From Elusimicrobiota bacterium (GTDB lineage Bacteria > Elusimicrobiota > Elusimicrobia > UBA1565 > UBA9628): a stretch of 64,000 bases of DNA. Location: the NCBI GenBank assembly GCA_016182905.1, contig JACPFR010000004.1:62001-126000 (forward strand), in the 5' to 3' direction. Made by a program: the position numbers and the translations under genes. Shown piece after piece: positions 26,832 to 49,110 of the stretch (position 1 is the stretch's first letter; each line of letters opens with the position of its first letter). Below the pieces are notes generated by a model. The model was not told where the DNA came from and searched no databases. It was given only the letters and a program-made list of their open reading frames with translations.

Positions 26832-26899
26832 GAAAGAAAACCACTCGCCCCCGTCGTTGCCGTTTCGTCGGCGGTGTTGAAAATCTCGAGGGGCGAGTG
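26832..26899 (-). terminator. Second terminator-like hairpin at the left island boundary
   Basis: Arms 26841-26851 and 26889-26899 (CCACTCGCCCC/GGGGCGAGTGG) with a 37-nt loop, then TTTTCTTTC on the minus strand. It lies directly after the CCA end of the tRNA remnant. Confidence 0.6.
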
Positions 26900-26945
26900 G
26901 TGGACCTTAGCGGGATCGAACCGCTGACCTCCTGCATGCCATGCA
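26897..26945 (-). repeat. 49-bp remnant of tRNA-Ala 3' part (attachment-site duplicate)
   Basis: Identical to 49642-49690, the anticodon-arm-to-CCA part of the intact tRNA-Ala gene. The 5' half of a tRNA is missing. A further 8-bp copy of the CCA end with its downstream tail lies at 26805-26812. Confidence 0.85.
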
Positions 26946-27117
26946 GAGCACTTTCCCGAGCCGCGGACTAGCAATTTTATTTAGAAAATATCGTTTTTTC
27001 AGGATCAAGATCCGCGGAAATATTTTCCAGGTGTCCCAATGTGTCCATACTCGGTCAAAATTGGACGATCTCGAACCAACGTCAGCCAATTGAGGCGCTG
27101 TCGCGAGTTACGTAAGT

Positions 27118-27702
27118 CTAAGATCGTCCCGCCATTATTCCACGATCTTCTCTGTGTGCTGGTGCAGCTAATGAGGAGAGAGCCCACCGAAGACGTTCGT
27201 CCTCAACCCGGCAATCCAACGGCATGCGATGAACGGTCGTGGCATTCCGCTGTTTCCTGTAGAGCCTTTCCAGGACACGCTGATAGTTCCTCTGGCTCTC
27301 CTTTCTGCGTGGACGAATCCCATCATCAACATACGGAATCGAGCCAAATGGCAGAACGATGCAGGCGTCATACGTCCTGACGCGCGCCCATGCTTCCGTC
27401 AAGAGGGGCTGCACCGCGGCCTCGTGCTGGCACCGGTAGAAAAGCACGTACGCGATGAAGTCCAAGCATGAGTTGTCCGCCACGAACGCCGGCAGGGCGG
27501 ACTCGCGCGAGACACGCAGGTCCCACAGCGCGGCGAGAACGACGGCGATCTCAGCCGCCGGCCGGCCGGCCAAAGGCTGATCCGTGACGACCAGATAGTC
27601 GCGCATCTCCTCTGAGATGCGCGGGATTCCTAGAGCCTCGGATAGGCCCGTCACGAGAGTCGTCTTGCCGACCCCCGCGGAGCCCGAGATGGCGATCTTC
27701 AT
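27118..27702 (-). CDS. P-loop ATPase/kinase-like protein
   Basis: A 194-residue P-loop protein with Walker A GSAGVGKT (7-14). The general layout (nucleotide binding, then EEMRDYL) resembles NadR/AAA_28-type small kinases. It is the last gene of the B12 operon, 1 nt after the cobO stop. No known cobalamin enzyme matches it. The C-terminus (after about residue 150) looks unstructured and Arg-rich, and may have been altered near the island junction. Confidence 0.65.
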   Translation of the reverse strand: MKIAISGSAGVGKTTLVTGLSEALGIPRISEEMRDYLVVTDQPLAGRPAAEIAVVLAALWDLRVSRESALPAFVADNSCLDFIAYVLFYRCQHEAAVQPLLTEAWARVRTYDACIVLPFGSIPYVDDGIRPRRKESQRNYQRVLERLYRKQRNATTVHRMPLDCRVEDERLRWALSSLAAPAHREDRGIMAGRS

Positions 27703-27703
27703 A

Positions 27704-28285
27704 TCAGAACTCGATGCCGGGCTGCGCCTTGATCTTCTGGTCCCGATAGGGATGCTTGATCGGCTTCATCTCGGTGACGAGATCGGCGAGCTGGATCAGT
27801 TCCTCAGTCGCGTGGCGGCCGGTCAGGAGGATATGCGTGTCCGGATCCTTCTCCTTCACGCCGTCGAGCACTTCCTGGGCGTCGAGGAAGCCGTAGTGCA
27901 CGACGTAGTTGATCTCATCGAGAAAGATGAAGCGGTGGCGCTTCGAGCGGATGAGCTCGAGACACTTGGCCCAGGCCACGCGGGCGCTGGCCTTGTCCTT
28001 CTCGATATTCCTGGTGTCCCAGGTGAAGCCATCGCCCATCGCGTGGTACTCGACCTGGTCGCCGAATGTCCGAAGCGCCTTGAGCTCGCCGGGGATCCAC
28101 TTGCCCTTGATAAACTGCACGATGGCGACCTTATAGCCGCGGCCGAGGCAGCGCAGCACCATGCCGAGGCCCGCCGTCGTCTTGCCCTTTCCCTCCCCCG
28201 TATGGACCATGATCAGGCCCTTCTTGATCGCGACCTTGATGTCCTCGTGAGTCTGCGGCGCTTTTTCGGCGTTGACCGTGTCCAT
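27704..28285 (-). CDS. cobO: Cob(I)yrinic acid a,c-diamide adenosyltransferase
   Basis: A 193-residue CobO/BtuR/CobA-type enzyme that attaches the 5'-deoxyadenosyl group to cob(I)alamin precursors using ATP. The P-loop is HTGEGKGKTT, followed by GYKVAIVQFIKG and the LDEINYV motif. The ATG at 28285 has AAAGGAG 9 nt upstream. The length matches the family (about 190-200 residues). Confidence 0.92.
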   Translation of the reverse strand: MDTVNAEKAPQTHEDIKVAIKKGLIMVHTGEGKGKTTAGLGMVLRCLGRGYKVAIVQFIKGKWIPGELKALRTFGDQVEYHAMGDGFTWDTRNIEKDKASARVAWAKCLELIRSKRHRFIFLDEINYVVHYGFLDAQEVLDGVKEKDPDTHILLTGRHATEELIQLADLVTEMKPIKHPYRDQKIKAQPGIEF

Positions 28286-28305
28286 GATTGATCGCTCCTT
28301 TAAAA

Positions 28306-28989
28306 TTATTTCAGCGTTTCCGCGGCCTGCCGGCCGTAACGGTCGTAGAATATGAGGTCGTCTACGGGGATTCGCTTTCGCCAGCCCGCGGTCGCGAGCA
28401 TCGGCTCCGCAGGAAACTCTTCGGGATAACCGACGCACAGATAGGCGACGGGCACGACATGGTCGGGCAGCCCGAGGATGCGAGCCAGGTCGCTATTATC
28501 GATAATGCTCACCCAACCAACGCCGACACCTTCAGCCCGCGCGGCCAGCCAAAGGTTCTGGACGGCGCAGCAAACGCTGAAGAGGTCCGTGTCGATGATC
28601 GTGCTTCTCCCGAGCACCTGTCCTCCGCGAGTGCGGTCGCACGTCACGCATACATTCAAGGCCGACTCGCGGATGCCCTCGAGCTTAAAGGATTTATAGA
28701 GAGCCGCCCTGTCGCCGGCGTATTGTCCGGAGGCGCGTGCGTTCTCGCGCTGGAAGACCTCGTTCACGCTCTCGCGGACCGCGCGATCGCGGATCACGAT
28801 GAAATTCCACGGCTGCATGAAGCCGACCGAGCCGGCATGATGCGCGGCATCGAGTATCCGGCGCAGGACGTCCGCGGGCACGGGATCCGGCCGGAATTTC
28901 CGGATATCACGGCGGCGATAGATCGCCTCATAGGCGCTCATTGCCGCGGCGGCCGGCGGCACGGTTTTAAAGGCTTTCAGGTGCGGCAT
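28306..28989 (-). CDS. bluB: 5,6-dimethylbenzimidazole synthase (BluB)
   Basis: A 227-residue nitroreductase-fold flavoprotein. BluB splits reduced FMN to make the lower ligand of B12 and needs oxygen. The signatures are YRRRDIRKFRPDPVP, GSVGFMQPWNFIVI and GVGVGWVSIID. The position in a B12 operon supports BluB over other nitroreductases. The start at 28989 overlaps the chlID 3' end by 23 bp and follows a run of six G; ATG 28941 is an alternative. Confidence 0.88.
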   Translation of the reverse strand: MPHLKAFKTVPPAAAAMSAYEAIYRRRDIRKFRPDPVPADVLRRILDAAHHAGSVGFMQPWNFIVIRDRAVRESVNEVFQRENARASGQYAGDRAALYKSFKLEGIRESALNVCVTCDRTRGGQVLGRSTIIDTDLFSVCCAVQNLWLAARAEGVGVGWVSIIDNSDLARILGLPDHVVPVAYLCVGYPEEFPAEPMLATAGWRKRIPVDDLIFYDRYGRQAAETLK

Positions 28990-30730
28990 AATGCGCCCCC
29001 CACGATTCGGCGATACGCTTGGCGAATCCCAGGCGTACCGCGCCTGATTCGGTGTCGATGACCAAGCCGGCGATCCTGCGCTTGCGGAACTGTTCCGCCA
29101 ACGCCAGGGTCTCGGCCAGAGGATCCTCGCCGGCGGCGACCGTTGGCCTACCGTCGGTGATCAGCACGACAAAAGGCTCAAGAGACTCCTGCGGGGAGAG
29201 CCGGGAGATGACCTGCTCCGCGAGCCTTATCCCCGCCGCGAGCGGCGTGCGGCCTCCGGTCATCATCTCAGCCAAAGCCTTCTCGGCCGCGGCGGCGCTT
29301 CGTGTCGGAGGCAGCAGCAACTCCGCCCCCTCCGCGCGGAAGGCGATCAAACCGACCTGGTCGCGGCGCTGGTAGGCGTCGACGAGCAGCGAGAGAGCCG
29401 CGGTCTTCGCCGCCTTCATCCGCGCGTGGGCGTTCATCGAGCCGCTTGCGTCCACGACGAAGAGTACGAGCGCGCCCGTCTTGAACTCGCGGATATGTTC
29501 CTTGATCTGGCCCGGATCGAGAGAGAGCGCGCCGTCGCCGGCGTCTCCGACGGCCGCGTGCTTCAACGTATCGTCCCAGGCGATCGCGGAGGCCTTGCCG
29601 GAGAAAGCGCGCAGCGCCACGGGAGCTCCGGTGACGCCGGTCGTCTCCCGGCTTTGGCGGCGGCCGGGCTCGGCCTTCCCCTGCCGGACGCTGCGCCCAA
29701 GAACATATGGCTTCACCGCGTGCGGCTTTCCCGCGGCATGGCTCGTCTCCGCGGCGTCCGAGTCTTTCCCGGGCTCCGTGGACGGCTTCGCGGCTTTGGA
29801 GCCGCCTTGCGCGCCGTCGGACTCGCCCATCGATGATGGGCGGCTTTTCGGCGGCGGCGGCGGAGCGCTTTGAGTGAGGTGCTTTTGGCGCCGATGCGGC
29901 AGGGCCAACAGCGCGGCCTCCTCGACATCCTGGGCCTCGACCGCCGCCTTGCCGGCGAGCGCCGCGAGGGCGCGCGCGGATCGATAGATCACGAGGTCCG
30001 CCCGAAGGCCTTGGACGCCCGATTCGACACAGATCGCCGCGATATCCCTCGATTGGCTTTCCGACAGATCGAGACGCGGCAGCAGCCCGCGAGCGCGAAG
30101 GAGCAGCGCCTTCAAGTCCGTCTCTTGAGCGGCCCATTTTTCGCAGAAGGCCGCGGGATCGAGGTCGAAAGCCAGCCGCCGTCGCGTGACCTCGACGCGC
30201 TCCTCGGGATCGGAGACCGAGTCGGTCTCGATCGACAAGCCGAAACGGTCGAGCAGCTGCGGACGAAGCTCCCCTTCCTCCGGGTTCATGCTCCCGACCA
30301 GGATGAACCGCGACGGCGAAGTCAGAGAGAAGCCCTCGCGTTCCACGCGCACGAAACCCGAGGCCGCGGCGTCGAGGAGAAGGTCGACGAGATGATGGCT
30401 TAGCAGGTTGACCTCATCAACGTAAAGGATGCCGTCGTGAGCCTGGGCCAGAAGCCCGGGAAGAAAGCGCTTCTTTCTCTTCTTGAGGATGAGCTCGAGA
30501 TCAAACGAGCCGAGAAGGCGGTCCTCGGTGCAGCCGAGCGGCAACTCCAAGAGGGGCGCGCCGGCGCCGAGCAGCCGGGCGAGGCCCCGGACGGCGGTCG
30601 TCTTGGCCGAGCCTTTTTGCCCGCGCACGAGGACGCCTCCGATCAGAGGATCGATGGCGTTGATCAGCAAGGCTCGCTTGAGCCGGGACTGTCCGACGAT
30701 AGCGGTGAAAGGATAATGGAGCGGTTTCAT
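28967..30730 (-). CDS. ChlI-ChlD fusion, chelatase AAA+/VWA subunit
   Basis: A 587-residue protein in which a magnesium-chelatase-type AAA+ domain (Walker A GQKGSAKT; Walker B region YVDEVNLL) is fused to a Pro-rich linker (about 290-370) and a von Willebrand A domain with the metal-binding DASGSMN and LITDGRP. With CobN it would power metal insertion using ATP in place of CobS/CobT of the aerobic cobaltochelatase. ATG 30730 is chosen for the AGGAGA 6 nt before it; ATG 30754, overlapping the cobN stop as ATGA, is an alternative. Confidence 0.88.
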   Translation of the reverse strand: MKPLHYPFTAIVGQSRLKRALLINAIDPLIGGVLVRGQKGSAKTTAVRGLARLLGAGAPLLELPLGCTEDRLLGSFDLELILKKRKKRFLPGLLAQAHDGILYVDEVNLLSHHLVDLLLDAAASGFVRVEREGFSLTSPSRFILVGSMNPEEGELRPQLLDRFGLSIETDSVSDPEERVEVTRRRLAFDLDPAAFCEKWAAQETDLKALLLRARGLLPRLDLSESQSRDIAAICVESGVQGLRADLVIYRSARALAALAGKAAVEAQDVEEAALLALPHRRQKHLTQSAPPPPPKSRPSSMGESDGAQGGSKAAKPSTEPGKDSDAAETSHAAGKPHAVKPYVLGRSVRQGKAEPGRRQSRETTGVTGAPVALRAFSGKASAIAWDDTLKHAAVGDAGDGALSLDPGQIKEHIREFKTGALVLFVVDASGSMNAHARMKAAKTAALSLLVDAYQRRDQVGLIAFRAEGAELLLPPTRSAAAAEKALAEMMTGGRTPLAAGIRLAEQVISRLSPQESLEPFVVLITDGRPTVAAGEDPLAETLALAEQFRKRRIAGLVIDTESGAVRLGFAKRIAESWGAHYAAPESL

Positions 30731-30750
30731 GGTTGCTCTCCTGCGCGTCT

Positions 30751-33700
30751 TCATGCGGCGGCCTTCGGTCGTTCCAGCGCGGCGCCTTCGAGGTCGCCCT
30801 CGACCTCGAGGACGGTGCGGCGCAGGGACTCGAGCATCGGCTCGGACGGCTTCTCCCAGAGTCCGCGCAGTGCGGCCTCGAGCAAGCGCTCGGCCATGCC
30901 CTTCAGCGCCCAGGGATTGCTTGCGGACAAGAACGCCCGGTTCGTTTCATCAAGCACGTACGACTCGACGACGCCCTCGTACATCCAGTCCTCGACGACG
31001 TGGGCCGTGGCGTCGTAGCCGAACATGTAGTCGACGGTCGCGGCCATCTCGAAGGCGCCCTTGTAGCCGTGCCGGCGCATGCCTTCCGTCCACTTGGGGT
31101 TGACGACGCGCGCGCGAAATACGCGCTTGGCCTCTTCCGACAGGGAGCGCACCTTGGGATCATCGGGCCGCGAGGAGTCGCCGAAATAGGCGAGCGGCGC
31201 CTTCCCGCTCAACGCGCGGACCGACGCGATCATGCCGCCATGGAACTGCAGGTAGTCGTCGCTGTCGAAGATGTCATGCTCGCGGTTGTCCTGGTTCTGC
31301 ACGGCCAAGGACACGGTCTTGAGGCGCTCGCCGAACTCGCGCTGGGACGGGCGGCCGTACGTCTTCTCCGTGTAGGCGTAGCCTCCCCAAGTGAGATAGA
31401 TCTTGGAGAGGTCCTCGTCGGACTCCCAATTGCGCTCGTCGATGGCCTGCAGGATGCCGGCTCCATAGCTCCCGGGCTTGCTGCCGAACACCCGCAGCAG
31501 CGCAGGATCCTCGTCATTCGCGCTCGACGGGCTGAACTTCTCGCTCCTGCGATCGGCGAGCCAATGCTTGCGCACGAAGTTCATCTCTTCCGGCTCTTCT
31601 TGCCGCGCCGCCAGTCTGACGGCCTGATCGAGAAGCGCCACCGCCTGCGGAAACGCGTCGCGAAAGAAGCCGCTGATGCGGACCGTCACATCGATGCGCG
31701 GACGCTTGAGCTCCTCGAGCGGGATCAGCTCAAGCCCGCGCACCCTCCGAGTCGACTCGTCCCAGACCGGACGCACGCCGAGAAGGCAGAGAATCTCGGC
31801 CACGTCGTCGCCCTTCGTCCGCATCGTCGATGTGCCCCAGACGATCATACCGACGGTCTCCGGGAAGCTTCCGGTTTCCTTGACGTAACGCTCCAGCAGC
31901 CGCGCCGCCAAGCCACGGCCCACTTCCCAGGCCGCTCTTGAGGGCACGGCCTGTATGTCGATCGAGTAGAAGTTCCTGCCGGTCGGCAGCACGTCGCTAG
32001 CGCCCCGCGTCGGGGAACCGCTCGGGCCCGGAGGAACGTAGCCTCCCGCCAAGCCCAGCAGCAGATGATCGATCTCCTCGGTGGTCCGGCGCAAGTTCGG
32101 AACGAGCTGGCGGCAAACGTCATCAAGCGCCCGTTCGAGCTCCGGATGGCCGCCATAGCGGCCGGCGACCTCGCGCGACGCGGCGGGATCGAACTGCCCC
32201 CGCGCCAACTCCGAGACGCATAGCTTGGAAACGTCGTGCAGGGCGCGCGTCACATCACCCCAGGCGCGAAGGGGCTGGTCGGGAGACAATGTCGCCAAGA
32301 CCGCCGGCAAAGGCCGGTCCACGGGCGCGCCGGGCTCGAGAGCGAGAAGCTGCGGGTCCATTCCGAGGGATACGGCCACGGCCTCTCTCATCGGCGCGGC
32401 GCGGCCGCGAAGACGCGTGAGCGCCAAGATCAGGTCGAGCAGCGCCTCGTTTTCCGGCGCCTTGCCGAAGGTGTGAAGACCGCCGCGGATCAGCGAGTCC
32501 TTGATCTCGCACAGATAGCCGTCGATGTGTTGGAGGAAGCCGCCGAAATCCTCCGGCGGAGCGTCGACGTTGAGGTCGGAGGTGAGGTTCGCCTTCTCGA
32601 CGAGCTCCCAGATCCTCTGCTTGATCCATGGAAGCTTCTTGGGGTCGAGCGCCTCCATCTGCGAGTATTCGTCCATCCAGGTCTCGAGCCTCGAGAGGTC
32701 GCCATAGCTGTCGGCCGTCGTCATCGGCGGGATCAGGTGATCGACGATCACGGCGTGGGCACGGCGCTTGGCCTGAGTCCCCTCGCCCGGGTCGTTGACG
32801 ACAAACGGATAGAACAACGGGAGTTCCGCGAGCGCCAGCTCCGGGAAGCAGTTCTCGCTCAAGCCCAGGCTCTTGCCCGGCAGCCACTCGAGATTTCCGT
32901 GCTTGCCCATATGGACGACCGCGTCGGCGCGGAAAATCTCCCGCAGCCACAGGTAGAAGCCCAGGTAGTGATGAGTCGGCGGCAGATCGGGACTATGATA
33001 GATCGCGATGGGATTGTCGCCGAATCCGCGCGGAGGCTGGACGCCGATGAAGACGTTGCCGAGCCGGATGCCGCGCACGTCGAGAGCGCCGTCCAGGCAG
33101 AACTTGTCGCCGGGCGCCTCGCCCCAGGTCGCGCCGATCTTCTCTCGTGCTTTCGGCGGCAGGCCGGAGAACCAGGCCTTGTAGTCGTCTCCCGAGAGGA
33201 ACATCCCCGTGGTTCGGGCGGACACATTCTCATTGTCCCAGGAGGCTCCGGACTCGATCAACTGCCTGACCAAGGCGTCCCCATCCTCCGGGAACTCCCC
33301 GACCTGATAGCCGTCGGCCTTGAGCGCCTTGAGAACCTGCACGAGCGAGGCGAGCGAATCGAGCCCGACGGCGTTGCCGATGCGCGAGTTTTTCGTCGGG
33401 TAGTTGCTCAGGATCAGAGCGACGCGCTTCTCGGAATTAGGAACGCGCCTCAGTCTGGCGAAGCGGACGGCCAAGCGCGCGACCACGCGGGTCCTTCCCG
33501 GATCGGCGACGTAACGCGTGATCGAGCATGCGAGGGGGCTCGCCTCGTCCATGATCTCGCGGAAGCAGAACGGCACCGTGATGATGCGCCCGTCGAACTC
33601 GGGGATGGCCACGTTCATCGCGACCTCGCGCGGCGAGAGGCCGGCGGGCGATTCGTCCCAGGCACGCCGCGAGCGAGTGCTTGATACGGCTTGCAGGATC

Positions 33701-34482
33701 GGCACGCCCAAGGACGCCATTGCGGCGACCTCGGGACAGTCCGCGGCGCCCGTCGACGCGGCGAAGCTCAGGGCGCAGATCAGGGCGTCGACGACGGGAC
33801 GGCCGTCCGCGATAAAGTATTTCTGGACCAAGGAGGAGAGGCCGGAATCCCCCTTGAGCCGGTAGCAGAATACAGGGACCGGGGACCCGCCGGCGGCGGC
33901 GACGGCTTCGCACAAAGAGTCGACGTAGCCGGTGTCCCCGACGAGCCAGTGCGCCCGATAGAACAGGATGCCGATCCTGGGTCCCGAGGTATCGGGAGGG
34001 ACGCGCTTCAGCGCGTACCGCCCATCGAGAGGCAAAGCTTGCGGCGCGGCGGCGCCGCGCGAGGTGCCCAACAATCCGTCGCTGAGCGCGCAGAGCCACT
34101 CCTTGACGTTCTGCACGTCGCCGTTGGCCCAATACGCCAGGGAGAGCCGGACGATCTCCGGCGGCACGGTCGTGAACTCCGACAGTTCCGGATCGGGCTC
34201 GTCGTGATGGGGCAAGGCCAGCATCGCGACCCCGCGCGCCTTCGCGGCCGCGCGAAGGAACCGCAGGCCTTCGTCGAAGTATCGAGTTCCTCCGAGAACG
34301 CGAACGGCTAAGACCATTTTTTCATCCGCAGGCAGCGACGTCCAGAACGCCTCGAGAGCCTGGAGCGAGCCGAGGTTGTTCGTGTTCTCGCAGCGGACTT
34401 TACCGAAGCCCGGGGGAAGCAGCGACAACGCGTTGTGGACGGCCAATATCTCGGACTCGGCGCTGCTCAGGAAAACGATCAT
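30751..34482 (-). CDS. cobN: CobN-type cobaltochelatase large subunit
   Basis: A 1243-residue CobN/BchH-family protein. The family signatures are visible: HMGKHGNLEWLPGKSLGLSE, SYGDLSRLETWMDEY and GMIVWGTSTMRTKGDD. The B12 operon favours cobalt insertion into hydrogenobyrinic acid a,c-diamide over magnesium insertion. GGAGG lies 7 nt before the ATG. The enzymes that make its usual substrate are not encoded in this window. Confidence 0.9.
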   Translation of the reverse strand: MIVFLSSAESEILAVHNALSLLPPGFGKVRCENTNNLGSLQALEAFWTSLPADEKMVLAVRVLGGTRYFDEGLRFLRAAAKARGVAMLALPHHDEPDPELSEFTTVPPEIVRLSLAYWANGDVQNVKEWLCALSDGLLGTSRGAAAPQALPLDGRYALKRVPPDTSGPRIGILFYRAHWLVGDTGYVDSLCEAVAAAGGSPVPVFCYRLKGDSGLSSLVQKYFIADGRPVVDALICALSFAASTGAADCPEVAAMASLGVPILQAVSSTRSRRAWDESPAGLSPREVAMNVAIPEFDGRIITVPFCFREIMDEASPLACSITRYVADPGRTRVVARLAVRFARLRRVPNSEKRVALILSNYPTKNSRIGNAVGLDSLASLVQVLKALKADGYQVGEFPEDGDALVRQLIESGASWDNENVSARTTGMFLSGDDYKAWFSGLPPKAREKIGATWGEAPGDKFCLDGALDVRGIRLGNVFIGVQPPRGFGDNPIAIYHSPDLPPTHHYLGFYLWLREIFRADAVVHMGKHGNLEWLPGKSLGLSENCFPELALAELPLFYPFVVNDPGEGTQAKRRAHAVIVDHLIPPMTTADSYGDLSRLETWMDEYSQMEALDPKKLPWIKQRIWELVEKANLTSDLNVDAPPEDFGGFLQHIDGYLCEIKDSLIRGGLHTFGKAPENEALLDLILALTRLRGRAAPMREAVAVSLGMDPQLLALEPGAPVDRPLPAVLATLSPDQPLRAWGDVTRALHDVSKLCVSELARGQFDPAASREVAGRYGGHPELERALDDVCRQLVPNLRRTTEEIDHLLLGLAGGYVPPGPSGSPTRGASDVLPTGRNFYSIDIQAVPSRAAWEVGRGLAARLLERYVKETGSFPETVGMIVWGTSTMRTKGDDVAEILCLLGVRPVWDESTRRVRGLELIPLEELKRPRIDVTVRISGFFRDAFPQAVALLDQAVRLAARQEEPEEMNFVRKHWLADRRSEKFSPSSANDEDPALLRVFGSKPGSYGAGILQAIDERNWESDEDLSKIYLTWGGYAYTEKTYGRPSQREFGERLKTVSLAVQNQDNREHDIFDSDDYLQFHGGMIASVRALSGKAPLAYFGDSSRPDDPKVRSLSEEAKRVFRARVVNPKWTEGMRRHGYKGAFEMAATVDYMFGYDATAHVVEDWMYEGVVESYVLDETNRAFLSASNPWALKGMAERLLEAALRGLWEKPSEPMLESLRRTVLEVEGDLEGAALERPKAAA

Positions 34483-34486
34483 GACG

Positions 34487-35458
34487 TTACCTCCATAGAT
34501 TCAGACCGGCTTGGTTCAGAGCCCACGCAGCGGCGACGGCCAGCACGACCGTGATATGCGCGCAGCGGTACATGACGCGGATCGAGCGCTCGATCATCTC
34601 GGGCCGCAGCGGCCGCACGGGTATCCCCAAAAATTGGGTGACGACGACGCGGGAGCCGTACCGGTTGGTCCCGCCCAGGCGAATCCCGAGCGCGCCGGCC
34701 ATCGCGGCCTCGGGGATGGCGGCGTTCGACGGCGTCGAGGACGCGCCGTCGCTCCAAGCCGCGCGGAAGGCGCGCCCCGCCGGAAGACCGGCGAGCCCCG
34801 CCGCGAGCGGCAAGAGCAGGCCCGAGAGCAGGGCGGGCGGCTTGTTCACGGCCGTGTCGAGCTTGGCCGCGAGCCGGCCGAAGCGGAGATAGCGGCTGTC
34901 CTTGTGGCCGATCATCGAGTCGAGCGTGTTGACCGCCTTGTACGCGAGCGCCAAGGCCGGGCCCCCGAGCGCCGCGTAGAATAACGGAGAGATCACGCCG
35001 TCGACCGTGCTCTCCGCCACGCACTCCACGGCCGCGCGCACGATCTCGGGCTCATCGAGCTCGCCGGTCTCCCGGCCGACGATCATCGACAGGGCCCGCC
35101 GCGCCCGCGGCAGATCGCCGGCTTCCAGCTCCGCGGCCACGCGCCTCGCCTCGACGGCCAGGGATCTGACCGACAAGGTCGTGTAGAGCAGCCACGCCGA
35201 GGCGGCGGCGCCGGCGGCGGCCGAAACGCGCCACGTCATGCCGAGGATGAGCCCGGCCGCGGCGTAGGTCGCCCCCACGACCGACACAGTCAGGAGGCCT
35301 CCCGAGATAAAGTCATTGCTGAAGACCGTCCGCAGCGTCGTCTCCCCTCTTGAGATCGCCGCGCCGATCCAGCGGACCGGGTGCGGCCAGGCCGGCGGGT
35401 CGCCGAGGATGAGATCGAGGGCGTACGCCAAGGGCAGCAGTTGCCAGGAGAGCGTCAT
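34487..35458 (-). CDS. cbiB: Adenosylcobinamide-phosphate synthase (CbiB/CobD)
   Basis: A 323-residue integral membrane enzyme that joins aminopropanol (or its phosphate) to adenosylcobyric acid. It has LILGDPPAWPHPVRWIG at the N-terminus, ESTVDGVISPLFYAALGG and GHKDSRYLRFG, all family hallmarks, plus several membrane helices. The start overlaps the cobQ stop (ATGA). Confidence 0.92.
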   Translation of the reverse strand: MTLSWQLLPLAYALDLILGDPPAWPHPVRWIGAAISRGETTLRTVFSNDFISGGLLTVSVVGATYAAAGLILGMTWRVSAAAGAAASAWLLYTTLSVRSLAVEARRVAAELEAGDLPRARRALSMIVGRETGELDEPEIVRAAVECVAESTVDGVISPLFYAALGGPALALAYKAVNTLDSMIGHKDSRYLRFGRLAAKLDTAVNKPPALLSGLLLPLAAGLAGLPAGRAFRAAWSDGASSTPSNAAIPEAAMAGALGIRLGGTNRYGSRVVVTQFLGIPVRPLRPEMIERSIRVMYRCAHITVVLAVAAAWALNQAGLNLWR

Positions 35459-36957
35459 GCCGCTTGGAGCCCCTGTCGGACGATGGTCCGCAGCCGCTTC
35501 ATATCGAGGTTCCGCCCCACGACGCGCGCGAGGGCGTCGAGCGCCCGTTCCCCCTGATCCCCCGATTTGGCCGCGAGGGGTGAAAGGCCTTTGGCGCGGC
35601 GCAGGCCTTTCAGGAGTTGGCGCCGGAAGGGAGCCGAGTCGAACAGTCCGTGAACGTAGGTCCCCCAAACGTTGCCGTCGAGTGAGGCTGAGCCGTCCTC
35701 GTCGCGGACGCGGCGTCCCTGGCGTTCGACGATCTTCAACAGGGCGTCGCCGCCGCGCCGCGTCGTCCGGCCCATGTGGATCTCGTAGCCGCGGATGTCC
35801 GCCCCGCTCGGGTTATGGGTGCCGCGCACCTCGAAGGTCGCCTTGGTCGAGGAGAAGCGCGTGTCGACGGCAAGCAGTCCGAGGCCGTCTTCCCTCCGCC
35901 GCGCCGACTCCGCCCCGGCGGGATCGAACAGCTTGCGGCCGAGCATCTGGTAGCCGCCGCAGATGCCGGCGACCTGGGCGCCGGCCGCGGCGCAGCGAAG
36001 CACGTAGCGGTCCAGGCCGCGCCGGCGCAGCTCCCGAAGGTCGGCCATCGTGCTTTTCGTACCCGGGATGATCAGCAGATCGGGAAAACGGTTGGCCTGC
36101 GGCTGATCGACGTATCGCAGCGAGACGCCGGGCTCGCGCGACAGCGTCTCGAAATCCGTGTGGTTGGAGATGCGCGGCAAGCGCAGAACCTCGACGAGCA
36201 CTTTCCCGCCGCCGCCGGCGGAGCGCGAGGTCTCGAGCAGCGCCGAGTCCTCCTGGGCGAGCCTCAGGTCCGAGAGGTGAGGAATGACGCCGAGCACGGG
36301 CACGCCCGTGCGCCGCTCGAGCTCCACGAGCCCCGGCTTGAGGATCGAGACGTCCCCCCTGAACTTATTGATCACGAAGCCCTTGACCCGCCGGCGCTCT
36401 TCTTCGGTGAGCAGCTCCATGGTCCCGATCAGCGAGGCGAAGACGCCGCCCTTGTCGATATCGGCGACGAGCAGGACCGGGGCTTGCGCCCAGCTGGCCG
36501 CCGTCATGTTCACGATGTCGAAACGGCGGAGGTTGATCTCGGCCGGGCTTCCGGCGCCCTCCAAGATCACCAGCTCGAATCCGGCCCTTAAGCGGTCCAA
36601 GGCCGCGCGGGCTTCCGGGACGACGCGAGGCTTCAGGCGGTGGTAGCCGCGCGCCGAGACGCTGGCGATCGGCCGCCCTATGAGCAGAACCTGCGAGCGG
36701 CGATCGCTTTGGGGCTTCAGGAGGATCGGGTTCATGTCGACCGACGGCCGCAGGCCGCAGGCGCGGGCCTGCTCCGCCTGTGCCCGGCCGATCTCGCCGC
36801 CTTCCTTGGCGATGGCGGAGTTATTGGACATGTTCTGGGTCTTGAAGGGCGCCACTCGCGCGCCCTCGAGGTGAAACAGGCGGCAAAGCGCGGTAACCAG
36901 CATGCTCTTTCCCACCGAGGAGCCCGTTCCCTGCACCATCAAGGTTTTAGCGGCCAT
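35455..36957 (-). CDS. cobQ: Cobyric acid synthase (CobQ)
   Basis: A 500-residue amidotransferase that amidates four side chains of adenosylcobyrinic a,c-diamide using glutamine and ATP. It has the P-loop GTGSSVGKS (10-18), FKTQNMSNN, and the C-terminal glutaminase with the nucleophile in GICGGYQMLG and His in YVHGLFD. The family usually reads NMSLN; here NMSNN. It overlaps the next upstream gene's stop by 11 bp. Confidence 0.93.
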   Translation of the reverse strand: MAAKTLMVQGTGSSVGKSMLVTALCRLFHLEGARVAPFKTQNMSNNSAIAKEGGEIGRAQAEQARACGLRPSVDMNPILLKPQSDRRSQVLLIGRPIASVSARGYHRLKPRVVPEARAALDRLRAGFELVILEGAGSPAEINLRRFDIVNMTAASWAQAPVLLVADIDKGGVFASLIGTMELLTEEERRRVKGFVINKFRGDVSILKPGLVELERRTGVPVLGVIPHLSDLRLAQEDSALLETSRSAGGGGKVLVEVLRLPRISNHTDFETLSREPGVSLRYVDQPQANRFPDLLIIPGTKSTMADLRELRRRGLDRYVLRCAAAGAQVAGICGGYQMLGRKLFDPAGAESARRREDGLGLLAVDTRFSSTKATFEVRGTHNPSGADIRGYEIHMGRTTRRGGDALLKIVERQGRRVRDEDGSASLDGNVWGTYVHGLFDSAPFRRQLLKGLRRAKGLSPLAAKSGDQGERALDALARVVGRNLDMKRLRTIVRQGLQAA

Positions 36958-38029
36958 GAGCGATGCTCCCCAGCGCCGCGATCAACTTTTTATTCTCAGG
37001 CGCCGTCCTCACGGCAAAGCGCACATGGCGCCCATCCTCGAGCCCGGGGAAATCCTCGCAAGAGCGCAGCAGCAGGCCGCGCGCCAAGGCCTCTGTTTTC
37101 CACCACGACGCGGCGGGACCGGGCTCCGGCACCCGGCACAGCAGGAAGTTCGCATCGGAGGGATAAGGAATGAATCCCAGCTCGGCGAGCGCCGCGGACA
37201 GTGCGGCGCGCAGTCCGGCCACCCGCTCCCGGCTCCGCCGGAGAAATCCGTCCTGGCTCAAGAGCGCGACTCCGGCCGCCTGGGCCAGGGCGTTGACCGA
37301 CCATGGCGGCTGGAAGCGCTTCAGCGCGTCGAGCAGGAACTTGGGCCCGACGGCGTAGCCGACGCGCAGGCCCGGGACGGCGAAGCTCTTGGTCAACGAG
37401 CGCAGCACGAGCAAGCCTTGCCGGGGCGCGCGCGCGGCCCAGGAACGGCCGTCGCCGCCGCGCGAGAACTCAAGGAACGCCTCGTCCAGGATAAGCGTGT
37501 GCTCGCGCGCGCGGCAGACGCGGACCAAGCTCGCCAGCCACGCGGGACGAAGCAGGCGGCCCGTCGGATTGTTGGGATTGGCCGCCCAGACCGCGCAGCG
37601 CCGGCGTCGCGCGATCGCCGACAAGACGGCGGAGGTGTCGAGCGGGAAGCCGCCGTTTGAGCGCGCATGAATGAAAGACACGGGTGTCTTCTCGATGGCG
37701 CAGGCGGACGCGTACTCGCTGAACGACGGCGACAAGATCAAGGCCGGGCGGCCGCGCAGCGCGCGAGCGGCGAGGTGGATGAGTTCCGCGGCGCCGTTGC
37801 CGGGAAGTATCTCGTCGGGCCGCACGCGATGGCGGTCCGCGGCGGCGCGCCGGAAGTCGCCGCAATGCGGATCGGGATAGCGGCCGATATCGCGCAGCGC
37901 GGCTTCGAGGGCCTTGCCGGCGGCGCGGGGCAAGCCGAACGGATTGATGTTGGCGCTGAAATCCGTGAAGGCGCGCGGGGGACGCTTCGTCCGCAGCGCG
38001 GCGCCGGCCCAATCGCCGCCGTGGCTCAT
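36947..38029 (-). CDS. cobD: L-threonine-O-3-phosphate decarboxylase-type aminotransferase
   Basis: A 360-residue PLP enzyme of the CobC/CobD group that makes (R)-1-amino-2-propanol phosphate for the nucleotide loop. It has DFSANINPFGLP near the N-terminus, NPNNPTG, LDEAF and the PLP lysine in SLTKSFAVPGLRVGY. Histidinol-phosphate aminotransferase is similar, but the start motif and operon favour CobD. The ATG overlaps the cobS stop. Confidence 0.88.
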   Translation of the reverse strand: MSHGGDWAGAALRTKRPPRAFTDFSANINPFGLPRAAGKALEAALRDIGRYPDPHCGDFRRAAADRHRVRPDEILPGNGAAELIHLAARALRGRPALILSPSFSEYASACAIEKTPVSFIHARSNGGFPLDTSAVLSAIARRRRCAVWAANPNNPTGRLLRPAWLASLVRVCRAREHTLILDEAFLEFSRGGDGRSWAARAPRQGLLVLRSLTKSFAVPGLRVGYAVGPKFLLDALKRFQPPWSVNALAQAAGVALLSQDGFLRRSRERVAGLRAALSAALAELGFIPYPSDANFLLCRVPEPGPAASWWKTEALARGLLLRSCEDFPGLEDGRHVRFAVRTAPENKKLIAALGSIAHGR

Positions 38030-38784
38030 GAGACGGCCCCTGATTGAAAGGCGAAGACGCCCAAAACGAGGAGCTCGACGAGCTCGCACGCGGCGCCCAA
38101 CGTGTCGCCCGTCATCCCGCCGATGCGGGCCTCGACGCGCCGGCGATACAGTTCAGCCGCGGCGACCGTGAGCAGGAACGATATCGCGCCGCGCCCGGGC
38201 GAGACGGCAACGGCGATCACCAGCGCGGCGGCGGCGACGAGACACGTCGTGCCGGCCGCGACCCGGCCGATATAAGGGCTTCCCGTCCCGCTCCCGGAAC
38301 GCGCATACGTCGAGCGATAGCAGAGCCAGACCATTGCCGCGCGCGACAGCGCTCCCGCCGCGACGAGAGCCGGCAGCGCCGCGGCCGCGCCCAGGCCGGA
38401 GAGCAAAGCGAACTTGCCGAGAAGCGCGCAGCCCACGCCCACGACGGCCATGGCCCCGGAGCGGCTGTCCTTCATCACGGCCAAGATGCGCTCGCGGTCA
38501 CCGTTTCCGTAGAAGCCGTCGCACACGTCGGCCAAGCCGTCGAGATGCAGGGCTCCGGAGGCCGCGGCCAGCGCCGCCACGGCCGCCGCCGCCGCGATCG
38601 GAGCCGGGAAAAAAGCGGCGCAAGCCATGCCCGCCGCTCCCGCAAGCGCTCCCACCAAGGCGCCGAGGAAGGGATAGAACTTCATCGAGCCTGGCAGGTC
38701 GCCTTCGGCCAGGCGGGATGGGCTCGGCACGGGCAGGACCGTCAGGAACTGCAGGGCCAGAATGGCCTGCCGCAGGGCGCTCAT
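38026..38784 (-). CDS. cobS: Adenosylcobinamide-GDP ribazoletransferase
   Basis: A 252-residue polytopic membrane protein that joins activated cobinamide to alpha-ribazole. The metal-binding DGLADVCDGFYG and the following DSRSGAMAVVG are family hallmarks; LQFLTVLPVP at the N-terminus is also typical. The ATGA overlap with tonB links the two. Confidence 0.92.
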   Translation of the reverse strand: MSALRQAILALQFLTVLPVPSPSRLAEGDLPGSMKFYPFLGALVGALAGAAGMACAAFFPAPIAAAAAVAALAAASGALHLDGLADVCDGFYGNGDRERILAVMKDSRSGAMAVVGVGCALLGKFALLSGLGAAAALPALVAAGALSRAAMVWLCYRSTYARSGSGTGSPYIGRVAAGTTCLVAAAALVIAVAVSPGRGAISFLLTVAAAELYRRRVEARIGGMTGDTLGAACELVELLVLGVFAFQSGAVS

Positions 38785-39449
38785 TCGTCCTCCAACGAGA
38801 ATCGGATCGGCATCTTCACCTTGCAGGCCACGGGATTTCCGTCGGCGTCGTACGCCGGCGAGAACACGGCTTGGCGGATTTTGCGCAGGGCCAGCTCGTT
38901 GAGCGCCTCGTCGGCGCCCTGCAGCAGCCGCGCGTCGCGCACGACGCCGATCTCGTCGATGAGCACCGACAGCACGACGCGGCCGTCCTTGCCCCTCTGC
39001 CGCGCGGACTGCGGGTAATCCTTGGTGGTGATGAAATTCGAGATCCAGCGCGGCTGGCGGGCGGCCTGCGAGGCCGGGATGTAGCGCCCTTCGCTCTCGC
39101 CGGTCCCTCCGCCGCCCGTGCCGATCGCCGTGGCCGCGCAAGGTTCGGGGCATGGCGTCGGCTCCTCCGGGGCGACCGGCAGCGGCGCCGGAGCGGCGGG
39201 CGCCGGCGCGGGCGGCGCGCCCTGCTTGGGCGCCGTCCAAAACGGCGCCGCGGCCGCCGCCCGCCCGCCGCCGGGATTCGGAGTCCGCATGGCGGCCAGG
39301 GAGAGATCGAGCTCGGCGACGATGGCCGGCGGCGCGCGGCGCGCCAAGGCGTACGACAGGCCCGCGAACGTCCCGGCGTGCGCCAAAGCGGAGGCGAGCA
39401 CGCCTCCTCCCACGCCGCCGATCACCCAGTTGCGGACGCGCGACCTCAT
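38781..39449 (-). CDS. tonB: TonB energy-transducing protein
   Basis: A 222-residue TonB. One N-terminal membrane segment (about 8-35) leads to a Pro/Ala-rich periplasmic spacer (about 65-105) and the C-terminal TonB domain (about 130-220) with YPQSARQRGKDGRVVLSVLI. It would energise the BtuB receiver encoded in the same operon. Overlaps exbD by 4 bp. Confidence 0.9.
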   Translation of the reverse strand: MRSRVRNWVIGGVGGGVLASALAHAGTFAGLSYALARRAPPAIVAELDLSLAAMRTPNPGGGRAAAAAPFWTAPKQGAPPAPAPAAPAPLPVAPEEPTPCPEPCAATAIGTGGGGTGESEGRYIPASQAARQPRWISNFITTKDYPQSARQRGKDGRVVLSVLIDEIGVVRDARLLQGADEALNELALRKIRQAVFSPAYDADGNPVACKVKMPIRFSLEDE

Positions 39450-39847
39450 CGTTCGGAGGCCAGAGCCACTCGGGTCACGCCCGCCTGCTTGATCGCGTCG
39501 AGCATCCCGACGACTTGCCGGTAAGGCAGCCCGCCATCCGCCGCGAGCGTGACGCGCACGCCCGCATCGCGCTTCGCCTCGCGCGCGAGGTTCGCCTTGA
39601 GGGCGTTCAGATCGACCGTCTGGCCCATCAGCTGCAGCGTTCCGGCTCTGTCGGCGGAGACCATGAGGCTCGCCGACGCGGGCGCCTCCGCCGTCGCCGC
39701 CTTCGGCAGGTTGATCTTGAGGCCCGACTCCGTGACGAAATGCGCCGTCACCATGAACACGATGAGAAGCACGAGCATGATGTCGACGAGCGGAGTGACG
39801 TTGATCCCCGTCACCATGCCGTCGTCGGCCGTCTCCATGGCGCTCAT
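39446..39847 (-). CDS. exbD: ExbD proton-channel subunit
   Basis: A 133-residue protein with the single membrane helix and the functional Asp in NVTPLVDIMLVLLIVFMV, and a periplasmic domain. It forms the TonB-energising motor with ExbB. The start at 39847 overlaps the exbB stop. Confidence 0.92.
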   Translation of the reverse strand: MSAMETADDGMVTGINVTPLVDIMLVLLIVFMVTAHFVTESGLKINLPKAATAEAPASASLMVSADRAGTLQLMGQTVDLNALKANLAREAKRDAGVRVTLAADGGLPYRQVVGMLDAIKQAGVTRVALASER

Positions 39848-40476
39848 TCGGCCGCGGCCTCCCTCTCGGCCTTCAGATGGACGAGAAGCAGATGGATCAA
39901 GCTCTGCGCGTTGACGCATTTCCTCTTCAAGCGCGTTTGGAACGCGTTGTTGGCGGCGACGGCCGGAATGGCCACGAGAATGCCGAACGCGGTCGCGACC
40001 AGCGCCGAGGATATCCCGGCCATGACGACGGCCGCTCCCGAGCCCCCGGTCATAGCCAGGTCGTTGAAGGCCTTGATCACGCCCAGCACCGTTCCAAAGA
40101 GTCCGATGAAGGGCGCGTTGTTGCCGAGCGTTCCCAGGACGATCAGATTTTTTTCGAGCCGCGCTCGCTCGAGGATGAGCCGCGACGTCATGGCCTCCCC
40201 TACCGAAGCGGGACCTTTCGAAATGTTCAAGATTCCGGCGGCGGCCACGCGCGCTTCCAGCGAAGTGTCCAATACCGACAGCCGCGCCCCGGCCCAATCG
40301 CCGGCCTCCAACTGCCGCGACAGCGCTTCGAGCAATGCCGGGAAGTCGGCATCGTCGCGCCGGAACACCCGCCATCTCTCGATAATGACGCCGAGCGAGC
40401 CGACACTCGCCGCGACGAGCAGCCAAAGCACCCAGACATCTCCAGCCAGCGCCAGCTTCTTGAACAATTCAATCAT
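39844..40476 (-). CDS. exbB: ExbB/TolQ-type proton-channel subunit
   Basis: A 210-residue membrane protein with three membrane segments. The conserved [19 protein letters not shown] and [20 protein letters not shown] match ExbB. With ExbD and TonB it completes a dedicated B12-uptake motor. It overlaps the CbiE-fusion stop by 4 bp. Confidence 0.92.
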
Positions 40477-41726
40477 GACTCGCGGCCCTCGCCAAGGTAG
40501 TCCTTCCTCAACGTCTTCCAGAGGTCCAAACGCGACCAGTCCGGTTCCTTGAGCTTGCGTAGATCGTCGCCCCGGAACGGGTTGGGAAGGAATACGGTGA
40601 TCATCTGCTCACCTCGGCCGTTCCAGAAGCGCAGGCCCCAGCTCTGCGGTGAGCCGGCAGTGTCCGTGGTCTTGAAGAAGGCGGCCTTAGTCACCCGTCT
40701 TTGGCGGGCGATCTCCGTGAGATTCTCCTTGGATTCAGGATGATGGGCGGTCTTCCCCTTGTACTCTCCTACGCACAGATGGAAGTGCCAAGGGCCCGCG
40801 TCCACGGTGAGATATCCGTCGAGGAAGCTGACCCGCGGCTTCTCGGTCAAGACGAGCTCGAAGACGGCGCCGGGGAGGCAGGGCCCGAACCGCAGGTGGT
40901 TCCAGTGAATCTCGAACAGCTCCTTGAACAGGCTTTCCTGGGCTTGCTGACCGCAGTCCATATACTCATACTCGGTCTTCGTGCCGTCGAGGGCCTCTTC
41001 CGTCTTGACGTCAGGGGCTTCCCGCGTCCTTGCCGCGATTTGATCTGACATTAGTCGTTCCTCCTGTCTGCGGATCAGCATGATGCTCATATGGGAACAT
41101 TCGCGGCCGACACACTCGGCGAGCGTGCCGCTCCAGCGCGCCTCGTCGCGGGTCAAGCTCTCCCACACCTCGGTCGGGTGCCAGGGCGAGACGCCCCGTT
41201 CCAGCAGGTAGGCCGCAATGTGCCGCGGCATGAAGGAGCGCGCCGCATCCCACGGGCAGGGAATGACGATGGCATTACGCTCGTCGTCGAGCACGCTCAC
41301 CAGATGACGCTTGAAAGGGGCGAGATCGCCGCGGCGGTGAAAGGTGATGAAGGTAGTCTCGTCGAAACACACCCTGGCGCGCGAGGCGAGGACCTGGGCG
41401 GAGGATATTCCGGGCAGCGTCTCAACCTCGTGACCGCAGGCGCGCTCGACCCGTTCCAGGTATTGGAAGCCGCTGAAGTGGACGTCGCCCATGAACACCA
41501 CGACGCAGCGTTTGCCGGCATGGTGTGCCGCTGCCACCCGCGCCAACTGGGCGTCTTGATCTCGGTAGCCCATCGTGACGACCTCCGCCGCAGCCGGGAT
41601 CAGACCGCGCACGATGTTGACCACCGTTTCGAACCCGGCGATGACATCGGCATCTTCGATCAACGCCGCCGCGCGCCGCGTCAAGTATCCGATGTCGCCC
41701 GGCCCTGCGCCGATCGCGATGATCAA
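40473..41726 (-). CDS. CbiE-like methyltransferase fused to an uncharacterised C-terminal domain
   Basis: A 417-residue fusion. Residues 1-225 are a tetrapyrrole methylase of the CbiE type ([29 protein letters not shown]), which methylates C5 (and C15 in some) of precorrins with SAM. Residues 226-417 form a separate conserved-looking domain ([46 protein letters not shown]) that I cannot name. A strong Shine-Dalgarno AGGAGG (41060-41065) lies 8 nt before an in-frame ATG at 41051, so the C-terminal domain may also be made alone (192 residues). CobL proteins carry CbiT at this place; this is not CbiT. The start is TTG, overlapping the previous stop. Confidence 0.8.
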
Positions 41727-42187
41727 GGCAACGTCCCCGCTGTCGCGGCCCGCCGCGCATAATCAAGAGTTGCGTCCCAGCCAGCTGCGTCCTTGATTTC
41801 GCTATAGACCCGACACCGATTGCCGACTCGCAGGGTCGCGGCCGGCGCGCTTTCGCAGAGCCCGTGGCATTCGGTGGCGGTGACGGCGCACCCGCCGGCG
41901 CCGACGGAGAAGGCCGGATGGGCCGGCCCGAAATCGGAGCGCTCGCGGCAGGGGCCGCTGCGGCAGACGAAGAGCTCGGCGGCCCGGTCGTAAAAGCGTA
42001 CCCGTGCACGCTCGAGCGCCGCCTCGAACTCGGCGTCGGAAAGGAAGAAGCCGTTCTTCTCGAGCCAGCGGCGCCGACTCGGAACCTCCTTGGGCGTCCA
42101 ACGTCCCTTCCACTTGACGACGAAGGCTAAGAGGAGTGTCTCGGCCGTGATCGGGACCTCAAGCGCGGCCTGCTCCGACGCTGTCAT
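41723..42187 (-). CDS. Thioredoxin-like [2Fe-2S] ferredoxin
   Basis: A 154-residue protein. Its second half has four cysteines in the thioredoxin-like ferredoxin arrangement: CRSGPC, then ECHGLC about 30 residues later. That fits a [2Fe-2S] cluster. The first 60 residues are a separate, charged region ([17 protein letters not shown]). Located between btuD and the CbiE fusion, with 4-bp overlaps on both sides, it may supply electrons for cobalt reduction or a ring step; this is inference. Confidence 0.7.
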
Positions 42188-42999
42188 GTGCCCCGCCCCG
42201 CCGGGACTTCGGCCGTATTATGAAGGAACGCCAGTTGCCATGCGCCAAGTATGTCGTGCCACTGCCCGACAGACTTGACGCCGAAGACCTCCTGAACCGT
42301 CTCCGGAGTGAGGACCTCTTCCGGCCGGCCGACGGCGACGATGCGGCCTCGAGACAGCAACGCCAAGCGGTCGCAGTTCCGCGCGGCCAAATTCAGGTCG
42401 TGCAGCACGATCGCCACGCCCCGCGTTTGCCCCAGGCCCCGCACCATATCGAGAAGGGCCATCTCATGGCGGATATCGAGATGCGCCGTGGGTTCATCCA
42501 GAAGCAGGAAATCCGGCTGCTGGGCGACAGCTCGGGCGAGGTGCACGCCTTGGCGCTCTCCTCCGGACATCGCGGTGACCGAGCGTTTCGCCAGATGCCA
42601 AGTATCCGTCCGTTCCATGGCCTGCCGCACGGCCTGGTGGTCTTCCGGTTGGATCGGTTCGAAGCGGCCGCGGAAAGGGTAGCGTCCCATCATCACGACT
42701 TCTTGCGCCGGGAAGGCAAAATCAGCCAGCACGTTTTGAGGAACGAAGGCGATCAGTCGCGCTAGCTCTCTCTTTGAGAAATCGGCCAAATCCCGGGCTC
42801 CAAGGCGGACTCTGCCGAAGGCGGGGTGGATCATCCCCGAAAGGACCCTCAGCAGTGTGCTTTTGCCGGCTCCATTCGGGCCGATAAGACCGGTCACGCC
42901 CGCGGGCGGTATCTCCAGGCAGATGTCCTGCAGAAGATGCTGGCCGCAGATCTCGTAACTGACGTTCTCGAGGGAAAGTCTATCCGCTTTCATCAGCAC
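42184..42999 (-). CDS. btuD: BtuD-like ABC transporter ATPase (cobalamin import)
   Basis: A 271-residue ATPase with Walker A GPNGAGKST, the Q-loop region FVPQNV, signature MSGGERQGVHLARA, Walker B LLLDEPTAHLD and the switch His in VLHDLN. It would pair with BtuC for vitamin B12 import. Start GTG 42999 has AGGAG 7 nt upstream; an ATG at 42993 overlapping the btuC stop (TGATG) is the alternative. Confidence 0.92.
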   Translation of the reverse strand: MLMKADRLSLENVSYEICGQHLLQDICLEIPPAGVTGLIGPNGAGKSTLLRVLSGMIHPAFGRVRLGARDLADFSKRELARLIAFVPQNVLADFAFPAQEVVMMGRYPFRGRFEPIQPEDHQAVRQAMERTDTWHLAKRSVTAMSGGERQGVHLARAVAQQPDFLLLDEPTAHLDIRHEMALLDMVRGLGQTRGVAIVLHDLNLAARNCDRLALLSRGRIVAVGRPEEVLTPETVQEVFGVKSVGQWHDILGAWQLAFLHNTAEVPAGRGT

Positions 43000-49075: not shown

Positions 49076-49110
49076 CGCCCGGCGTCCATATGCGTCATCA
49101 GGTGGCTTAA

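Follow-up and report, generated by a model that had tools for sequence, protein, structure and literature searches.

Cobaltochelatase subunits CobN and ChlID on a tRNA-associated corrinoid island of an Elusimicrobiota bacterium in which no corrin-ring pathway was found

What does a cobaltochelatase act on in a cell that does not appear to build the corrin ring? The question is raised by a 64,000-nucleotide stretch of an Elusimicrobiota bacterium genome (assembly GCA_016182905.1, contig JACPFR010000004.1, positions 62,001 to 126,000 of the forward strand; hereafter the window), in which the genes for the large cobaltochelatase subunit CobN and the motor subunit ChlID lie side by side in a run of corrinoid genes (Table 1). 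CobNST is known to act on hydrogenobyrinic acid a,c-diamide. The initial annotation of the window offered three explanations: imported or modified corrinoids, another tetrapyrrole, or a pathway split across the genome. The first is the best supported of these, and we favor, at a confidence just short of even, salvage of imported corrins, some of them perhaps metal-free, with CobN–ChlID inserting the cobalt.

Judged by its sequence, the larger protein is a true CobN and the smaller its ChlID partner, as had first been proposed, and the coordinates given for the pair were exact. CobN scored 1275 bits against TIGR02257, above the curated cut-off of 822, as well as 1349 bits against PF02514, and is single-copy in the genome. 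In a comparison with the PDB it was nearest to Mycobacterium tuberculosis CobN (1141 bits), versus 364 bits for the heme dechelatase HmuS. In a maximum-likelihood tree of 21 rows with a midpoint root, from which HmuS itself was left out and compared by score only, the window CobN fell inside the CobN group (support 100/99), beside Nonomuraea (95/93), and apart from BchH and from two BtuS-like rows (T. lovleyi and the same-phylum genome G261, so labeled from their place in the tree and their context). Seven reference CobNs share 192 invariant columns; of these the window CobN retained 179, versus 129–131 for BchH and the two BtuS-like rows, and the sole change among the invariant H, E, D, C and K columns was K308 to R. 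When each reference was left out in turn, the omitted CobN retained 192 of 200–258 columns; the window CobN retained 1 to 6 columns fewer than the omitted reference in five of the seven tests, and more in the other two. The "ring" status of three of the references is a label only, since the Nonomuraea and Sinorhizobium records are unannotated and Halobaculum has only a CbiC neighbor.

The adjoining ChlID supplies CobN with an AAA+/VWA motor partner, and both frames are intact. It is a ChlI–ChlD fusion that scored 279 bits against a ChlI-type chain versus 65 bits against a BchD-type chain. Its match to the "putative cobaltochelatase" family TIGR02442 (631.5 bits) was below the cut-off of 779, as was that to BchD-ChlD (391 bits; cut-off 500); VWA and AAA lid domains were also matched. 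A magnesium chelatase or heme dechelatase as the principal identity was ruled out by the CobN tree and the conserved residues. The phylogeny proposed as a check in the initial annotation placed the protein in the CobN clade and not with BchH or the BtuS-like rows, and the idea of another tetrapyrrole as substrate is disfavored by the tree, the invariant columns and the gene neighborhood alike.

The remainder of the genome was then the place where a corrin pathway might be found. The assembly comprises 3.98 Mb in 63 contigs, with 97% completeness and 1.88% contamination. CbiC/CobH was not found in it, nor was CobB, the search for which gave CobQ and one match below the cut-off; CobA/CysG, CobI, CobJ, CobM and CobF were not recognized either. 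The tetrapyrrole methylase family PF00590 had eight matches, among which only the CbiE of the window was of corrin type; the other seven were one RsmI above its cut-off, one RsmI-like protein (58.9 bits; cut-off 167.9) and five weak matches on another contig, C10. Six CbiC-bearing genomes searched likewise had 5–8 PF00590 matches, of which 4–6 in each exceeded 100 bits, versus one, RsmI, in the present genome. Neither sign of a de novo corrin pathway that we looked for, the ring enzymes or the a,c-diamide synthase CobB, was detected at this level of completeness: the early observation that CbiE is the only ring gene held among the island genes scanned, and the genome-wide search, which could have overturned it, found no complete corrin pathway elsewhere in the assembly. 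The genome encodes 11 B12-binding domains, which indicates that the cell uses cobamides.

The five C10 proteins (at 146–153 kb and 169 kb; L009 6395–12723 and L010 12442–13941) have tetrapyrrole-methylase domains of only 26–55 bits. Tetratricopeptide repeats are present in four of the five, one of which also has an epimerase domain, and a glycosyltransferase lies beside the first four. On these grounds they were rejected as hidden ring genes and are taken simply as SAM methylases.

Among 58 genomes of relatives, including this genome and 18 congeners, CobN was found only here, and no congener has it; across the phylum, CobN was found in five of 340 genomes, again including this one. CbiC was missing from 17 of the 18 congeners, some of which are only 70–75% complete, and a ring cluster is present in the congener G010. 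Loss of a ring module in an assembly gap is therefore not the default expectation. The same-phylum CobN-family carriers G261, G266, G268 and G359 have one tetrapyrrole methylase each, and none of the three included in the CobN tree joined its main CobN group.

A GTDB scan with the CbiE–DUF7676 protein of the window (described below) yielded 26 loci (the P0001 locus set) in 25 genomes, five of which have CbiC. Among these genomes plus G010 and G049, CobN exceeded the cut-off in six: with CbiC in G058, G059 and G080, and without it in G060 (Chromatiales), G064 (Bryobacteraceae) and G074 (Rokubacteria). G077, with a PF02514 match below the cut-off, was left out of the count. The ring-less CobN carriers are placed apart in the CobN tree. 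Their tetrapyrrole-methylase matches, of whatever type, number four in G060 (two being pieces of one CbiE, the N-terminal part of which is out of frame), two in G064 (the best of which lies near a glutamyl-tRNA reductase gene) and three in G074. G064 and G074 each have a second BtuF/C/D set, which stands immediately ahead of cobN, with ChlID following cobN, and both loci have cobalamin riboswitches. That an additional importer is paired with cobN is the chief new argument for a CobN that acts on an imported substrate.

Deinococci and their relatives were also considered. Deinobacterium chartae, used as a control, had a CobN match and no CbiC match. D. deserti (L136) has cobO, ring genes, cobN, chlID, cobB and cbiB in a single run. 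In D. taeanensis the ring module is on plasmid p_TS293_2 and cobO-cobN-chlID-cobB-cbiB-cobQ-cobU on p_TS293_4 (L112, L140); its CbiC and ring module on another plasmid ruled it out as a ring-less CobN example. Ratios of nonsynonymous to synonymous substitution (dN/dS) for Deinococcus cobN, 0.14–0.31 over six pairs, were set aside, since D. taeanensis has the ring and the ring-less status of D. ficus and QL22 is unproven. In D. aquaticus pDATS01 (L139) the cobN match is broken in two around a formate transporter, and toxin-antitoxin genes follow immediately downstream; cobN is missing from the PLSDB gene table for this plasmid, which is itself incomplete.

The corrinoid genes of the window lie on a tRNA-associated genomic island: an insert at a tRNA gene, with a duplicated tRNA end, that is missing from relatives. 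Because the tRNA-Ala 3' end is duplicated and the site is empty in congeners, the island extends from ≈26,958 to 49,641, or ≈22.7 kb. About 90 bases beyond the tRNA-Ala 3' end are also repeated, at 26718–26812. In congener G007 the left flank (aldehyde dehydrogenase, 94% identity; M15 peptidase, 84%) is joined to the right flank (81–83%), and the gap from the last left gene to tRNA-Ala is 317 bases there and ≈90 in G014. These two, of five congeners examined, have a clean empty site. The same tRNA-Ala(GGC) is occupied otherwise in G006, by an insert of ≈16 kb with its own tRNA-end repeat, and in G018, by ≈2.6 kb (L106, L109), which makes the site an integration hot spot in the genus. Two of the left-flank genes are missing in G006, and in G011 none was found within the 40 kb examined. 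G007 also lacks an equivalent of the next 2 kb to the left of the island (24.87–26.7 kb), where the open reading frames belong to no known family. No integrase was found among the genes scanned, and the left-edge frames 25230–26057 and 26067–26666 match no family.

In tetranucleotide composition, 13 stretches taken from other contigs were averaged; the flanks correlate with this mean at 0.957–0.973, and the stretches themselves span 0.649–0.970. The island (65% GC) correlates at 0.886, within this range, so composition does not mark it as foreign. A misbinned contig was ruled out by PGK (53270–54475), which is 96% identical to one congener and 90–92% to several and is present in 18 of 19 genus genomes (this one included), and by the conserved flanking gene order; composition agrees, as weak evidence.

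On the island, a cobalamin riboswitch heads a run of ≈21 closely spaced minus-strand genes that ends at 27118 and combines TonB- and ABC-dependent corrinoid import with most of the steps from cobalt insertion to adenosylcobalamin. With nucleotide-loop genes present and ring genes not found, the genome falls in the cobinamide/corrinoid salvager category of Shelton et al. (2018). The island genes scanned included no recognizable CobB, Co(II) reductase or threonine kinase; as an idea only, the P-loop kinase that ends the run is a candidate for the threonine kinase step. The start of ExbD was placed by eye near 39847, the N-terminal part of the longer frame overlying exbB, and homology in CbiB begins at residues 78–80, so that its true start is probably later than that of the frame. 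The Cys-rich protein, possibly a [2Fe-2S] ferredoxin if its motif is any guide, had no family match and no credible PDB relative, and its model was set aside at a pLDDT (predicted local distance difference test score) of 62. Elsewhere in the window (3336–9725, minus strand) is a type I polyketide synthase of 2129 residues with KS, AT, KR, DH and ACP domains.

Table 1. Features of the corrinoid island and its boundaries, in the order of transcription (window coordinates)
Feature	Position	Strand	Evidence and remarks
tRNA-Ala (GGC), 3' end = right island boundary	49642..49717	-	ARAGORN, blastn
Cobalamin riboswitch aptamer RF00174	49238..49423	-	106 bits; just upstream of first gene
Alpha-ribazole phosphatase-like (histidine phosphatase, CobC)	48506..49156	-	TIGR03162 143 bits (below 163 cut-off), PF00300
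CobU/CobP adenosylcobinamide kinase/guanylyltransferase	47973..48512	-	NF004469 177 bits
CobT dimethylbenzimidazole phosphoribosyltransferase	46900..47976	-	TIGR03160 449 bits
TonB-dependent receptor, BtuB-like	44949..46907	-	Best NCBIfam TIGR01779 249 bits (below 600 cut-off), PF00593, PF07715
Periplasmic binding protein, BtuF-like	44030..44947	-	PF01497
FecCD permease, BtuC-like	42993..44033	-	PF01032
ABC ATPase, BtuD-like	42184..42999	-	PF00005
Cys-rich protein, 154 aa	41723..42187	-	Relative in L019 at 32% identity
CbiE-type C5-methyltransferase + DUF7676, one frame	40473..41726	-	CbiE aa 1-221, DUF7676 ≈aa 228-417
ExbB/TolQ proton channel	39844..40476	-	PF01618 105 bits
ExbD/TolR	39446..39847	-	PF02472 at aa 205-324 of longer frame
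TonB	38781..39449	-	PF03544 60.5 bits
CobS/CobV cobalamin synthase	38026..38769	-	TIGR00317, PF02654
CobC/CobD threonine-phosphate decarboxylase	36947..38089	-	TIGR01140 299 bits, above cut-off
CobQ/CbiP cobyric acid synthase	35455..36957	-	NF001989 613 bits
CbiB/CobD adenosylcobinamide-phosphate synthase	34487..35668	-	TIGR00380 199 bits, PF03186
CobN cobaltochelatase large subunit	30751..34482	-	1243 aa; profile scores, PDB comparison, tree, conserved columns
ChlI-ChlD (CobS/CobT-like) AAA+/VWA motor subunit	28967..30754	-	595 aa; 4-base overlap with cobN end
BluB 5,6-dimethylbenzimidazole synthase	28306..28989	-	TIGR02476 262 bits
CobO/BtuR corrinoid adenosyltransferase	27704..28438	-	TIGR00708 222 bits
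P-loop kinase (AAA_28/NadR-like)	27118..27702	-	Last gene of run
Direct repeat of tRNA-Ala 3' end, att-like left boundary	26898..26957	-	57/60 positions identical (95%), blastn

One gene of the run is the CbiE–DUF7676 frame. Its CbiE part scored 325 bits against NF004457 (cut-off 302) and 95.4 bits against TIGR02467 (cut-off 92.9), is 65–70% identical to its counterparts in six ring-bearing genomes, and has retained 101 of the 108 columns that are invariant there; on sequence grounds, it looks active. CbiE runs into DUF7676 in one frame, and with a Shine–Dalgarno-like AGGAGG and an ATG at the junction, DUF7676 could be translated separately.

An alignment of 21 DUF7676 sequences has invariant WHFHLC and WNG-x-GEQM motifs. 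The AlphaFold2 model (pLDDT 85) matched ChuX, HutX, ChuS, HemS and PhuS chains with Z scores of 8.5–11.8 in the 14 best rows, four of them unnamed or putative; the best (Z 11.8) had a root-mean-square deviation of 3.3 over 129 residues, and these were followed by one PhuS row at 6.8, with unrelated chains scoring no higher than 3.4. Foldseek E-values were weak (1e-3 to 0.4), there was no PDB sequence match, and at an E-value of 1e-4 PF24724 and PF00590 were the only families hit, not PF06228 or PF05171. By its structural matches, the modeled domain would belong to the ChuX/HemS fold. A btu or cobQ match was also present in 19 of the 22 loci with a DUF7676 match, and among six loci scanned, a cobalamin riboswitch lay upstream of DUF7676 in four of the five that bear it. 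We infer that DUF7676 may be a corrin-handling relative of the heme chaperones, which it resembles in modeled fold and from which it differs in having its own Pfam family and in being found in corrinoid loci. Among the papers listed in literature searches, none was on DUF7676 or its fold. DUF7676 also occurs without the CbiE part (L020–L037, L039 and L040), mostly in Rokubacteria and mostly in corrinoid-uptake loci, and CbiC was found in one of these 20 genomes (G078). In L019 (16634–17026), a ChuX/HutX-family protein (PF06228, 29.9 bits) lies beside CbiC in a ring-bearing corrinoid cluster.

Salvage of imported corrins would join these elements as follows. The ≈22.7-kb island would have been inserted as a unit at the tRNA-Ala 3' end of a lineage without corrin-ring synthesis, and the riboswitch would control the acquired salvage system. 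BtuB, with its own ExbB–ExbD–TonB, and BtuFCD would import corrins, and the DUF7676 domain, from its fold and neighborhood, would probably receive the imported ring. CobN and its ChlID motor would insert cobalt into the metal-free part of the imported pool, and CobO, CobQ, CobC/CbiB, CobU, CobT/BluB and CobS would then complete adenosylcobalamin. The imported or modified corrinoids first suggested find their support in the riboswitch, the BtuB–BtuFCD–ExbBD–TonB genes in the same run, the late genes and the CobN clade; the import of metal-free corrins, and the action of CobN on them, are what we infer.

Several points weigh against this reading. Uptake of metal-free corrins by BtuB/BtuFCD was shown by no result of this analysis, and among the papers listed in literature searches none dealt with pools of metal-free corrins in the environment or with their salvage. 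In the island, neither a cobalt importer nor CobW was recognized, and in engineered Escherichia coli, according to the available text of that report, CobNST did not function in the cell unless cobalt transporters were supplied (PMC6249242). CbiE is an orphan that is not readily placed in a route beginning only once the ring is closed. G060, G064 and G074 are assemblies without stated completeness, and the present assembly is itself only 97% complete, in view of a D. taeanensis that keeps its ring and cobN modules on different plasmids.

That last point bears on the foremost alternative, which we judge unlikely: ring genes and cobB may be carried by a plasmid or belong to the few percent that the assembly misses, with CobN in its usual de novo role. 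Plasmids are easily lost from assemblies, and the cobN module of D. taeanensis, seen alone, would look ring-less; the closeness of the window CbiE to those of ring-bearing genomes and the ring cluster of G010 point the same way. The split pathway raised in the initial annotation was nevertheless searched for and not found: CbiE was the only ring methylase detected in 3.98 Mb, CbiC, CobB and CobA/CysG did not turn up, 17 congeners, incomplete as some are, likewise lack CbiC, and the island is bounded with no ring genes inside. What still speaks for a split is the 63 contigs, the missing 3% and the D. taeanensis example.

It is also conceivable, though less so, that CobN, ChlID and CbiE are relics of an island that used to be complete, in a cell that lives on cobalamin and cobinamide salvage and could dispense with the chelatase. 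CbiE would then be the sole remnant of the ring set. Intact cobN and chlID frames with a 4-base overlap, the conserved CobN columns, and the recurrence of CobN without CbiC in genomes that lie apart in the tree weigh against such decay. In its favor, Shelton et al., in the portion of their text available, noted chelatase annotations in genomes without most ring and loop genes, attributed chelatases in ring-less genomes to overlapping annotation or to decay, and proposed that certain incomplete pathways were on their way to loss (PMC6461909). Highly improbable is a chelatase run in reverse, removing or exchanging the metal of imported corrinoids (or heme) as the CobN/ChlH relative HmuS takes iron from heme (PMC12583661, available text): the predicted ChuX/HemS-fold domain and the lack of a recognized cobalt importer would suit it, but the window CobN is remote from HmuS in score and from the BtuS-like rows in the tree, has a ChlID ATPase partner (published descriptions give HmuS a dependence on NADH and transmembrane ends, and BtuS a membrane anchor and a periplasmic location), and is under a cobalamin riboswitch.

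Salvage of imported corrins also finds a parallel in the literature, where ring-less bacteria with cobN are already on record (Sphingomonas haloaromaticamans, PMC6970198; an annotation remark in Shelton et al., PMC6461909; available text in both cases). S. haloaromaticamans, as far as the accessible part of its report goes, is without ring genes, keeps late genes and a riboswitch-led btuB-hoxN-cobW-cobN-cobO-btuF run, and, depending on a supply of B12, continues to grow when given it (PMC6970198). It resembles the present genome in the ring genes not found, the late genes kept and the riboswitch-led btuB, cobN, cobO and btuF; unlike the island, it was reported with CobS, CobT, CobA and CobB, and with HoxN and CobW beside CobN. 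A tRNA-bounded island, a CbiE orphan and DUF7676, all features of the window, are not mentioned for it in that part. Among the papers listed in literature searches, none reported such an island, or a second importer paired with CobN as in the two other ring-less assemblies.

The CobN-clade protein and adjacent AAA+/VWA motor are shared with the late-cobalt-insertion CobN(ST/ChlID) systems of de novo pathways, from which the window genome differs in that ring genes and CobB were not found. Similarly, the Deinococcus operons (L136; L112, L140) have a cobO-cobN-chlID-cbiB run, a substrate-binding protein ahead of it and separable modules, but a ring module in the same cell. HmuS and BtuS, in the available descriptions, belong to the same chelatase superfamily and are likewise tied to TonB-dependent uptake; they differ in branch and in their heme-uptake setting, and no ChlID is annotated beside the T. 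lovleyi relative.

In a wider form, which we hold to be doubtful, salvage of this kind would mean that some bacteria feed on cobalt-free corrins released by others, with BtuFCD and CobN–ChlID under riboswitch control, DUF7676, fused in frame to a methyltransferase in the present case, taking the ring from the importer, and cobalt insertion serving as a salvage step. If ring-less chelatases work, cobalt-free corrins would be a nutrient passed between organisms, adding a step to the known routes of B12 sharing. The island moved as one compact block, and for DUF7676 a function can be predicted, that of handling corrinoids as a relative of the heme chaperones.

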